Source: an uncultured Prevotellaceae bacterium (GTDB lineage Bacteria > Bacteroidota > Bacteroidia > Bacteroidales > Muribaculaceae). Taken from it: DNA of 36,021 nt. How positions within the stretch are numbered: position 1 is the first letter of the stretch; every line of letters starts with the position of its first letter. Under the pieces are notes generated by a model that had not been told where the DNA came from, ran no database searches, and worked only from the letters and a program-made list of their open reading frames with translations. The translations under genes were made by a program, and so were the position numbers. This document shows positions 27,772 through 30,588 of this stretch, in pieces. The stretch spans positions 1 through 36,021 of the forward strand of contig ONIY01000036.1 in the NCBI GenBank assembly GCA_900318065.1. Direction: 5' to 3'.

Positions 27772-27779
27772 CAAAGGTA
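27772..27779 (-). promoter_or_regulatory. -7 box for recF
   Basis: The reverse strand reads TACCTTTG 32 bp before the recF ATG. The -33 position falls in TTTCAG repeats (27784-27822) and has no good match. Confidence 0.5.
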
Positions 27780-27858
27780 GTGAAAAGTTTTCAGTTTTCA
27801 GTTATCAGTTTTCAGTTATTTTAGTGAAGAGTACACGCCAAGATAATGAACAAAACCA

Positions 27859-27997
27859 AGATTTGGTTAAATTTGAAAGAAAATCTAACCAAATGTGCCT
27901 CAAAAATCAAGATTTGGTTAAAATCGCGCGCAAATCTAACCAAATGTGCCTCAAAAAATGAGATTTGGTTAAATTTTCTTGTTTTTTTAACCAAAAG
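27859..27997. repeat. Left array of 51-bp palindromic repeats before the DUF234 ATPase gene
   Basis: AGATTTGGTTAAA starts at 27859, 27910 and 27961, exactly 51 bp apart. Each unit holds ATTTGGTTA facing TAACCAAAT, a 9-bp inverted repeat. The third unit keeps the inverted repeat but diverges between the arms, where it supplies the -33 region of the ATPase promoter. Units 1-2 (27859-27949) recur after the gene at 29472-29562 with two mismatches in 91 bp. Confidence 0.9.
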
Positions 27998-28009
27998 TAC
28001 TTATTTTTG
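27978..28009 (+). promoter_or_regulatory. Promoter of the DUF234 ATPase gene
   Basis: CTTG (27978-27981), 20 bp, TATTTTTG (28002-28009) fits the consensus. The -33 box lies in the loop of the third palindromic repeat, so binding to the repeat would block or recruit polymerase. Confidence 0.65.
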
Positions 28010-28035
28010 CGCTCAGTAATAAAAACCATACCATT

Positions 28036-29472
28036 ATGATTAATGAACCAATAATAGGCAGGAAAAGCGAGCAGGCAGAGTTGATGCGTTGCTACAATAG
28101 CACGCGTGCCGAGTTTGTAATCATTTATGGCCGTCGCCGTGTGGGTAAAACATTCTTGGTGAATCACACTCTAGGCCAACACTTATCTTTTTATTACACA
28201 GGCAGTCACAGTGCGCCCAAGCATCGCCAGCTGCTTCGCTTTGCCGAGGCATTACACAATTATGGCTTGTCACAGAAACCAGTGCTCAAGGACTGGTATG
28301 ATGCCATGGATGCATTACAACTATTGATTTCTCAGTTGCCATCCAGCTCTCGCAAGGTGATTTTTCTTGATGAGATGCCATGGATGGGAGGAAGCAATAG
28401 TGAATTTGTCTCGGCATTAGAAGACTTTTGGAACACATGGGCAATGTTGCGCAGTGACATTTGTTTTGTGGGGTGTGGGTCTTCAACATCTTGGATGGTA
28501 GATCACCTTATTGAAAATCAAGGTGGATTGCATGGGCGCATCACTTCGCGAGTGTATCTAAAACCTTTCACTCTGGGCGAGACCGAGCAGTTCCTCAGGA
28601 GCAAGAACTGTGAGTGGGATAGATATCAAGTGGCTCAATGCTACATGTGCTTTGGGGGAGTGCCTTTTTACTTGAATCTATTAGATACAAGGCTTAGCTT
28701 GGCGCAAAACATCGACATGCTTTATCTCAACCCTGGTGCAGTGTTGCATAATGAGTTCTCCGAGTTGTATGGAGCCCTTTTTGGCGGTAATGAGACTTAT
28801 AGAGAAGTTGTCAAGCTATTATCTCAGCATCACATGGGCTGTACTCGACAGGAAATATCTAGAAGCGTGAAGTGTCAAGGCGGAACTCTCACTAAAGTGC
28901 TTTCCAACCTGATAAACAGTGATTTCATTGTTGCCTATAATCAGTATGGAAATAAGAAGAAAGGAATGATATATCGCCTCACCGATATGTTCACGTTGTT
29001 TTATTTTCGGTTTGTTGAGAATCGCTCGGTGCTGGATTCCAATGTGTGGCAGCGCATGGTCAACTCTCCTAAAGTCAATGCTTGGCAAGGATTGTGCTTT
29101 GAGATAGTGGCATTAAGGCATGTCGAAAATATTAAGAGGGCATTAGGATTAAGTGCAATTGAAACTAAGTCAAGCACTTGGCGAAGTTCGGGCAAGGAAG
29201 GCTTGCAGGGGACACAAATAGATTTGATTATTGAGAGGGCCGACAGAATCATTCATCTGTGTGAGTTGAAATTCTCACTCGAACCATTATCTATTACTGC
29301 CGAATATGAAAAAAAACTTCGAAATCGCATGGCCCTGTTTCGTGCCGAGACACATACCCGAAAGTCTCTGGTTACAACGTTTGTTACAACCTATGGGGTT
29401 ATGCAAGGGAAACATTCGGGTATTGTGAACAGTCAAGTGACGTTAGACGATTTGTTTTACATTGAAAACTGA
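28036..29472 (+). CDS. ATPase with DUF234 nuclease-like C-terminus
   Basis: The protein has 478 residues and starts MINEPIIGRKSEQAELMRCY, the usual N-terminus of archaeal-type ATPases (I-G-R-x-x-E). Walker A is GRRRVGKT (residues 32-39), Walker B is KVIFLDEMPWM (about 113-121), and a sensor-like CFVGCGSSTSW follows. The middle has a winged-helix region (MGCTRQEISRSVKCQGGTLT). The C-terminal DUF234 domain has TDMFTLFYFRFVE, then QIDLIIERAD and HLCELKFS, a D...ExK pair as in PD-(D/E)XK folds. The gene is intact, rightward in a leftward block, and bracketed by 91-bp repeats; its TGA overlaps the right copy by one base. Such genes are common and their role is unknown to me. Confidence 0.88.
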   Translation: MINEPIIGRKSEQAELMRCYNSTRAEFVIIYGRRRVGKTFLVNHTLGQHLSFYYTGSHSAPKHRQLLRFAEALHNYGLSQKPVLKDWYDAMDALQLLISQLPSSSRKVIFLDEMPWMGGSNSEFVSALEDFWNTWAMLRSDICFVGCGSSTSWMVDHLIENQGGLHGRITSRVYLKPFTLGETEQFLRSKNCEWDRYQVAQCYMCFGGVPFYLNLLDTRLSLAQNIDMLYLNPGAVLHNEFSELYGALFGGNETYREVVKLLSQHHMGCTRQEISRSVKCQGGTLTKVLSNLINSDFIVAYNQYGNKKKGMIYRLTDMFTLFYFRFVENRSVLDSNVWQRMVNSPKVNAWQGLCFEIVALRHVENIKRALGLSAIETKSSTWRSSGKEGLQGTQIDLIIERADRIIHLCELKFSLEPLSITAEYEKKLRNRMALFRAETHTRKSLVTTFVTTYGVMQGKHSGIVNSQVTLDDLFYIEN

Positions 29473-29562
29473 GATTTGGTTAAATTTGAAAGCAAATCTA
29501 ACCAAATGTGCCTCAAAAATCGAGATTTGGTTAAAATCGCGCGCAAATCTAACCAAATGTGC
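29472..29562. repeat. Right copy of the 91-bp (two-unit) repeat
   Basis: Two 51-bp-spaced units (29472 and 29523) match 27859-27949 with only two mismatches and no gaps. The repeat begins at the last base of the ATPase stop codon and runs in the same orientation as the left copy. Confidence 0.9.
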
Positions 29563-29568
29563 GATTTC

Positions 29569-29650
29569 TCGACCGCTCGACTGCTCAACTATTCAACTGC
29601 TCAACTATTCAACTATTCAACTACTCAACTACTCAACTATTCAACTGCTC
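29569..29650. repeat. CTCAACTATT-type short tandem repeat
   Basis: About eight degenerate 8-10-bp units of CTCAACTATTCAACTGCT type fill the gap between the 91-bp repeat and the 3' end of the DMT transporter gene. Non-coding. Confidence 0.75.
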
Positions 29651-29658
29651 AGCTGCTT

Positions 29659-30588
29659 TTAAAACAGAAAGAACAGCGACACTCCTGTTACCGAGATGAT
29701 GGCGCCTAGCACGCTGCGGGGGGTAATAGGTTGCTTGAAGATCCACCATGCCGGCAGGATGATGATAATGGGTGTGAGCGCCATGAGGGTGCTGGCGATG
29801 CCTGCGCTGGTGTATTGCACTGCAAGCAGCGAGCATCCCACTCCCACAAAGGGCCCGAAGATGGTTGTGAGCGTTGCCACGGTCATGCTGGTGCGGTCGG
29901 TAATGTTCTTGCGCAGCGATTGAAACCCTTCCTTGAACATGAGCAGCAAGAAGAATCCCGTTATGCCAGCAAGGCAGCGGAACACGTTGGCATAGAAAGG
30001 CAATATCCATGGTTCGCAGGGAGTTGTCATCGATGCCTCATAGTGGTTCATGCCTATCTTGCTGAGCACCAGTCCCACTCCCTGGCACACTGCGGCGCCA
30101 ATGGCAAACAGCACGCCATTGAGTGGCAGCTTGAGTGAGAGACGATGCGAGTTGTCGCCGCGTCCCAGCACAGTGATGGCGATGCCAGTGAGGGTGACGA
30201 GCATGGCTATGATGCCCATGGGCTTGATCGACTGTCCCAGCGTGACCCACGCCATGATGGCGGCGGTGATGGGTGCCAGAGTCATGAACAGCTGCCCAAA
30301 CTTCGACCCAATGATGATGTAGCACTGAAAGAGGCAGAAGTCGCCTATCACATATCCCACTAGTCCCGAGAGCATCATCCACAGATAGGCTTCGCTGCTT
30401 GCGTGTGCTGGCAGCGGACTGCCTGTGACAATCCAGAACAGGATTGCCGAGAAGATGAGCGTGATGGCCATGCGAGTGAAGTTTAGCGTCACGTTGCCCA
30501 TGCGCTTGCTGCCCATCTCGCTTAGCAATGCAGTCGCAGTCCACGAGAACGCTACGCCTATCGATATGAGTTCGCCTAAGTATTGCAT
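29659..30588 (-). CDS. DMT-superfamily (EamA) transporter
   Basis: The protein has 309 residues from MQYLGELISIGVAFSWTATA; a TTG two codons earlier is less likely. About ten transmembrane helices are visible in two EamA halves (for example VTLNFTRMAITLIFSAILFW and SMTVATLTTIFGPFVGVGCS). The second half ends with TPIIIILPAWWIFKQ and a final helix SVLGAIISVTGVSLFFLF. These proteins export or import small metabolites such as amino acids or nucleosides by antiport. The substrate cannot be told. The gene is leftward, flanked at both ends by degenerate tandem repeats, and seems complete. Confidence 0.88.
   Translation of the reverse strand: MQYLGELISIGVAFSWTATALLSEMGSKRMGNVTLNFTRMAITLIFSAILFWIVTGSPLPAHASSEAYLWMMLSGLVGYVIGDFCLFQCYIIIGSKFGQLFMTLAPITAAIMAWVTLGQSIKPMGIIAMLVTLTGIAITVLGRGDNSHRLSLKLPLNGVLFAIGAAVCQGVGLVLSKIGMNHYEASMTTPCEPWILPFYANVFRCLAGITGFFLLLMFKEGFQSLRKNITDRTSMTVATLTTIFGPFVGVGCSLLAVQYTSAGIASTLMALTPIIIILPAWWIFKQPITPRSVLGAIISVTGVSLFFLF

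Follow-up and report, generated by a model that had tools for sequence, protein, structure and literature searches.

The ATPase gene and its flanking repeats

The window, by which we mean the whole 36,021-nucleotide stretch of DNA that was analysed, comes from a Prevotella-like bacterium and contains a gene that codes for a probable DNA-cutting ATPase. The gene lies between two 91-bp repeats that, as an earlier note on this DNA had claimed, are near-identical: they run on the same strand and align without gaps, with two mismatches. The finer details given there also held. Palindromic units are 51 bp apart in both the left and the right array, each unit has perfect 9-bp arms (which in U1 and D1 lengthen to 14-15 bp if one mismatch is allowed), a third and diverged unit of the left array spans the putative promoter, and the first base of the right repeat is the last base of the TGA stop codon (29470-29472). 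Used as a query, the 91-bp repeat occurs at exactly two places in the 2.99-Mb assembly, with 100% and 98% identity. The promoter assignment follows the Bacteroidota promoter consensus. The features of the locus, all on the forward strand, are listed here.

27859-27949 (+): left direct repeat, two palindromic units 51 bp apart (palindromes 27861-27894 and 27912-27945)
27963-27995 (+): third, diverged palindrome of the left array, lying across the promoter, a proposed operator (aligned with the arrays of genomes G042, G047 and G045)
27979-28009 (+): putative promoter, TTG at 27979-27981 and TATTTTTG at 28002-28009
28036-29472 (+): 478-aa AAA+ ATPase/winged-helix/PD-(D/E)XK-like protein of the PDC-S27 family
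28129-28152 (+): Walker A motif GRRRVGKT, residues 32-39, invariant except for V36 in 30 aligned proteins
28363-28374 (+): Walker B motif FLDE, residues 110-113, with D112 and E113 invariant in 30 aligned proteins
28783-28941 (+): putative winged-helix region, approximately residues 250-302 (weak MarR-type profile matches and the structural model)
29083-29271 (+): C-terminal nuclease-like domain (30 aligned proteins, conservation in 116, and the structural model)
29472-29562 (+): right direct repeat, two palindromic units with two mismatches to the left copy (palindromes 29474-29507 and 29525-29558)

Just beyond the arrays, at 29562-29660 on the right and 27775-27820 on the left, are simple tandem repeats (CTCAACTATT-like and CAGTTTTCAGTTAT-like units), and similar runs fill the space between recF and an EamA-type gene in a related genome, G011.

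The window protein matches the Pfam family ATPase_2 (PF01637) with 54.1 bits, against a curated cut-off of 33.2. The label "DUF234 ATPase" that it had been given needs one correction: DUF234 (PF03008) is not matched by the window protein at E ≤ 1; that family is matched by 17 of 30 proteins in a set that includes the window's, the best at 1e-5. Over nearly its whole length (residues 5-474, profile positions 3-473 of 474) the protein matches the PADLOC profile PDLC04984, PDC-S27, with an E value of 6.6e-189. Residues E356, Q394, D396, E410 and K412, invariant in all 30 aligned proteins, make up a PD-(D/E)XK-like set, and weak matches to MarR-type winged-helix profiles fall around residues 241-317 and put the winged helix itself at roughly 257-312. 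An AlphaFold2 model built from 10 sequences has a mean pLDDT of 83.8. Its nearest folds are the Walker-type ATPase 2qen, the NB-ARC modules of NLR proteins and Apaf-1, and Orc1/Cdc6, at TM-scores of about 0.2-0.3, which are low and indicate similarity of fold class only. L216-L218 were left out of the structure alignment.

No known transposase or recombinase domain, and no tyrosine (Y1/HUH) transposase, is among the seven Pfam families that the window protein matches at E ≤ 1. A profile search found a weak match to VchTnsC (E 0.0026). TniB, an accessory ATPase, was matched by three of the 30 proteins (best E 0.0047, among 25 of 47 Pfam families listed).

Palindromic arrays across the family

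The window's genome holds six copies of the gene including the window's own, the other five being 40-42% identical, together with two weak matches. Three of the five (L004, L005 and L006) have a repeat unlike the window's on both sides of the gene, and the other two (L007 and L008) have tandem units of 51-52 bp on the upstream side. At E ≤ 1e-60, 47 of 61 genomes of the genus carry between 1 and 15 copies, and the gene is present in 8 of 198 genomes across the phylum, the window's own among the eight. Our homologue set comprised 117 loci, nearly all from one genus, with L001, L002, L009 and L010 kept out of the homologue counts and L031, whose reading gave 16 aa, kept out of the protein alignment. 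Loci with short flanks were dropped, leaving 115 of the 117 upstream regions for the analysis of inverted repeats and 115 loci for that of upstream-downstream similarity. Some loci are orthologous or come from the same species (for example L012/L040 and L021/L022), so these counts are not counts of independent events.

Upstream inverted repeats scoring at least 10 are present at 90 of 115 homologue loci, compared with 4 of 115 dinucleotide shuffles and 1 of 28 recF promoters (a control that leaves out L122 and L125). Downstream of the gene the corresponding figures are 40 of 117 loci and 1 of 117 shuffles. Successive palindromes are most often spaced by 51-54 bp, about five helical turns (32 of 64 spacings), and the last one ends a median of 56 bp before the ATG. 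A TAnnTTTG box lies within the last 120 bp before the ATG in 111 of 117 homologues, at a median of 31 bp, a count that stands without a chance rate. Direct similarity of at least 25 between upstream and downstream regions was found at 38 of 115 loci and in 0.6% of mismatched gene pairs, which argues that flanking by repeats is more frequent than chance would give. Inverted similarity of the same strength, of the kind that terminal inverted repeats would show, occurs at 22 of 115 loci; palindromes by themselves yield such similarity. On the shuffle, recF and mismatched-pair controls we rejected chance as the source of the palindromes and the flanking repeats. The earlier note had stressed the bracketing repeats, but the upstream array on the promoter is the more constant feature, and the gene's own array is also found downstream at 32 of 116 loci.

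The link between gene and repeats might have been accidental if, as the note itself had put it, the repeats were widespread without the gene or the homologues lacked them. With 90 of 115 homologue upstream regions palindromic, the comparison did not bear this out. A search for the window's array in the 61 genomes of the genus placed it beside orthologues of about 80% identity in G042 and G047; it also stands once without a gene, in G045, and there are five further short matches (E 0.0017-0.0073). A short ATPase fragment on a small contig of the window's genome (L010:1221-1883), matching residues 120-181 and lying by tandem repeats of 80 bp and 33 bp, is possibly a decayed copy.

Outside the genus, palindromes accompany the gene at seven of eight homologue loci from other families of the phylum, and those of homologues in Butyrivibrio (Bacillota) and on an Emticicia plasmid have TTTGGCGGAATAT in common. 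Of eight loci on plasmids and phages, six have an inverted repeat scoring at least 10 in the 300 bp upstream, the gene ends of L201 and L208 being approximate; the Haloferax and Wolbachia phage loci have no upstream inverted repeat of at least 9 within that distance, and that of the Malaciobacter locus is A-T-rich. When viral contigs were searched, a single protein gave no match and an alignment query gave 10 loci; four of eight viral-contig loci score at least 10. Because a strong palindrome is absent from several of these 16 plasmid, phage and viral homologues, we claim the association for the closer subfamily only. The Wolbachia phage WO record (L207), annotated as an archaeal ATPase with DUF234, has its 35% identical homologue adjoining head and portal genes, with no palindromes nearby.

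We compared protein identity with palindrome similarity for the 101 of 116 proteins that have a palindrome to compare, and the two are correlated (Mantel r 0.45, p ≤ 0.001). At unrelated sites, a palindrome is common to 12 of 12 pairs whose proteins are 85-97% identical (three protein families, not 12 independent events) and to about 17 of 22 pairs (0.77) at 65-75% identity. Below 45% identity, at any site, 4.5% of 3622 pairs have a palindrome in common. When the protein was scanned for stretches that vary in step with the palindrome, none stood out clearly (partial r between -0.15 and 0.11). As far as these alignments go, the palindromes differ between lineages and travel with the gene.

Limits of the unit and its occupied and empty sites

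Copies of the gene at unrelated sites define the extent of the unit. In 20 chosen related pairs, detectable similarity starts at -145 to -165 in 12 and between -79 and -245 in the others, and stops no more than 50 bp from the stop codon in 18, two pairs extending to about +150. The outer flanks are unrelated in 19 pairs, those of L102/L113 being slightly alike (score 34). Judged by these alignments, related copies at unrelated sites are alike from approximately the outer palindrome to the stop codon.

A direct duplication scoring at least 20 surrounds the gene at 42 of 116 loci; among 400 mismatched pairs the 99th percentile was 15.5 and the maximum 34.5. By inspection, the gene's own array takes part in 32 of the 42. 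The flanking duplication can also be of another kind: in the other 10 (L036, L050, L068, L075, L079, L095, L103, L104, L106 and L108) it involves host DNA or a foreign palindrome. In seven of these 10, representing five independent sites, the core between the duplicated segments measures 1634-1698 bp, which leaves space for little besides the ATPase reading frame. Longer cores occur in L050 (1916 bp), L095 (2018 bp) and L068 (1799 bp), and in L095 and L068 the duplication begins about 160 bp past the stop. Beyond the best duplication we found no second match above 15 except a simple repeat in L056 (18), with L047 and L049 only partly testable. Several short dispersed matches of the region downstream of L106 are a CCCCTCCCC-type repeat (three inspected).

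Some loci have arrangements of a different kind. At L103 and L068 the flanking duplications contain palindromes of another family member (L116-type and L041-type, respectively), which suggests that palindromes serve as insertion targets across families. In L049 (1-2449), promoter-like sequence of the upstream copy recurs in the downstream copy, and the repeat runs off the end of the contig, as might be seen if two elements lay in tandem or the assembly had broken on a repeated copy. Within the window's genome, the array of L008 is immediately preceded (1197-1300) by two identical 52-bp units whose palindrome is of the type found at another paralogue (AGTGCTAAA..TTTAGCACT), a nested or solo array.

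If the unit moves, some relatives should hold the same site without it, and we tested four loci of genome G034 against close relatives, three of which were informative. In G028 two of the sites are empty: site A, which holds L106 in G034 and L104 in G048, and site B, which holds L075 and L079. In both cases the approximately 110-145 bp that flank the gene twice are present in G028 as a single copy; at site A, gaps are needed to align the downstream flank with G028. None of five G028 loci examined has an ATPase match, and the palindromes of the element were not seen in the stretches inspected. At site C (L054), G034 has palindrome, gene and palindrome, and both G048 and G028 have a solo palindrome in that position, where the matches to the two flanks overlap by 76 bp in G048 and 75 bp in G028. 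All three sites thus have one copy of the target when empty and two when occupied. For L101, the two flanks match different contigs of the relatives and are not syntenic. When a Phocaeicola homologue was used to look for plasmids or phages that are nearly identical except for the element, the full-length matches were only 100% identical records that carry it.

The bases at site C bear weakly on the direction of change. The two palindrome copies in G034 are identical at 71 of 73 positions, with the two differing bases near one edge; the left copy differs from that of G048 by one base, at which the two G034 copies agree with each other, and the palindrome of G028 differs more. G048 is the closer relative of G034, at 96% compared with 91% for G028, and a single insertion into an existing palindrome is therefore simpler than two losses. 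Excision between the repeats would nevertheless leave a single-copy state that looks the same.

At the window's own place, recF directly adjoins the EamA-type gene in G010 and G011, with neither an ATPase gene nor an array seen between them. In G042, the array and gene are next to a different gene, X, and recF is about 3.7 kb distant; at the corresponding place G045 has a gene-less three-unit array of the window's kind and G001 has neither array nor gene. G042, G045 and G001 group together in a recF tree, in which G000 lies outside the other seven ingroup genomes (90/94), a branching that fits gain as well as loss of this copy. The two-unit duplication in the window would fit an insertion into an array that was already there, the route proposed for site C; the two relatives that are empty between recF and EamA show no array in that place.

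A probable mobile unit, its alternatives and known systems

The earlier note had read the locus as a mobile or excisable module, or as an ATPase-nuclease that recognises its own flanks. As a statement of class this is well supported by genome comparison, which provides the anatomy and limits of the unit, related copies at different sites, three polymorphic loci where matched sites lack the gene and hold the target once, direct duplications around the gene, and joint diversification of palindrome and protein. The recognition of DNA by the protein, and its role as the mobilising enzyme, we infer. Our best explanation, which we hold with somewhat better than even confidence, is that the gene, together with the palindromic array upstream of it, makes up a single-gene mobile element of about 1.6 kb that its protein moves by means of private palindromes, the array probably being both operator and mobility site. 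Using its winged helix and AAA+ module, the protein would probably bind each private palindrome as a dyad, with units about 52 bp apart presented on the same face of the helix. Binding would repress the element's own promoter, which the last unit overlaps, and the bound array would mark the left end of the element, the right end falling on the stop codon or shortly after it. The nuclease domain would probably cut the target with a wide stagger and so leave a direct duplication of about 50-400 bp. Where the target is an existing cognate palindrome, the gene would come to be bracketed by two copies of it, as may have happened in the window; where it is ordinary host DNA, host DNA would be duplicated instead.

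The strongest rival to a mobile element is that the gene serves defence, has operators of its own and is carried about passively. PDC-S27 would then act as a single-gene phage defence, the palindromes would be its operators, host recombination between repeats would account for gain and loss of the gene, and the protein would not be a mobility enzyme. The full-length PADLOC match, the patchy distribution in genus and phylum, the STAND/NLR-like fold neighbours (Avs3 and Avs4 among them) and the last palindrome on the promoter all fit such a system, and PMC12988326, in the part of its text available, tallies 3503 archaeal and 4562 bacterial copies as candidate defence. The same text terms such candidates unvalidated, many of them having no association with known defence islands. 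We consider this reading unlikely, since the host DNA that is duplicated at sites A and B is present once in the relative, which suggests that something was inserted and not that a cassette was lost, and the unit has little space beyond the gene. A distinct proposal is that the arrays are regulatory, the right-hand copies arose by local duplication, and the "empty" sites are deletions between direct repeats. Near-identical repeats 1.5 kb apart are recombinogenic, the few base differences among the copies at site C are compatible with deletion, and the solo array of G045 is an array without a gene. However, two separate losses would be needed at site C, in G048 and in the more distant G028; the base common to both G034 copies and absent from G048 counts weakly against deletion; and both the duplicated ends of host genes at A and B and the related copies at unrelated sites would be left unexplained. 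We give this proposal a low probability.

Two further possibilities concern the palindromes themselves. If the protein spread palindromes as solo units, in the manner of REP sequences and their transposases, the copies flanking the gene would merely be local ones. Solo or foreign palindromes do exist, in G045, in G028 and G048 at site C, and beside L006, L008, L068 and L103, but copies are few where tested: the window repeat is at two places in its genome, the arrays of L008 match only their own locus at E < 0.005, and foreign palindromes occur at three loci (L006, L068 and L103) in 163 kb of flanks. Such an account is improbable. That the palindromes are RNA hairpins or terminators instead of protein-binding DNA sites is scarcely credible. 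Several of them are T-rich on one side and resemble terminators, for example at site C, but mismatches in the arms have no wobble preference (34 G-T and 29 A-C among 2521 positions), which argues for a double-stranded site and led us to reject the hairpin reading; moreover, most of the array lies upstream of the putative promoter and hence outside the gene's transcript. A homing endonuclease gene interrupts its own recognition site, and in the window and at site C the palindromes are intact on both sides, so this candidate was rejected as well, if the palindromes are taken as the recognition site.

A mobile element remains our preferred reading. Against it, we know of no enzyme of AAA+/winged-helix/PD-(D/E)XK architecture that moves DNA, and empty counterparts are identified for only a minority of the flanking duplications. 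More tentatively, and at slightly less than even confidence, we suggest that the family constitutes a new class of autonomous transposable element. In such an element an Orc1/NLR-like AAA+ winged-helix ATPase, fused to a PD-(D/E)XK nuclease, would move itself via a private palindromic array, produce target duplications of 50-400 bp and prefer palindromic or cognate sites, with protein and palindrome re-specified together. This raises a testable question: is a PD-(D/E)XK nuclease that is coupled to an Orc-like ATPase able to insert DNA with long staggered duplications?

Several known systems share parts of this design. The archaeal Walker-type ATPases 2qen and 2fna, which are solved folds, and Orc1/Cdc6, replication initiators that bind origin repeats, combine an AAA+ module with a winged helix and are among the best fold and profile matches, but no mobility is described for them in the literature searched. 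Tn7 pairs an AAA+ regulator, TnsC, with a restriction-endonuclease-like nuclease, TnsA; here the two functions are fused in one protein, the unit has no TnsB, and there is no short fixed duplication. IS1634 and IS1549 are single-gene units with direct duplications of tens to hundreds of base pairs, DDE transposases and terminal inverted repeats. The present unit resembles them in its single gene and long direct duplications and differs from them in that Pfam finds no DDE transposase domain in the window protein.

The family itself is already catalogued: the window protein belongs at full length to PDC-S27, a single-gene phage defence candidate in PADLOC-DB, and the accessible text of PMC12988326 describes PDC-S27 as an ATPase fused to a PD-(D/E)XK-superfamily domain. 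The claim that no such system had been described therefore fails for the protein family. As for repeats and mobility, neither PMC12988326 nor PMC13356809 mentions private palindromic arrays, flanking duplications or mobility of PDC-S27 in the parts seen, and the open-licence literature searched yielded no palindromic arrays or mobility for the family in the text it makes available. These features are what set the present description apart from the candidate defence gene of the catalogue. If the element reading is true, thousands of genes now counted as PDC-S27 phage defence are mobile elements, and surveys of defence genes need correction. A common family, by the tally of PMC12988326 noted above, would be a transposable element with no recognised transposase, its patchy multi-copy distribution in the genus would be accounted for, and its matched protein-palindrome pairs would form a large natural set for learning how AAA+ winged-helix proteins recognise DNA.

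The REP-associated tyrosine transposases with their REPINs are similar in that one gene is tied to palindromes of its own type, as far as the part of PMC3116915 available describes them. They differ in that the protein here is AAA+/winged-helix/PD-(D/E)XK-like, the flanking copies are in direct orientation, and solo copies are few where tested. We conclude that the nearest analogues are RAYT/REPIN and the few insertion sequences with long duplications, and that the enzyme is unlike both.
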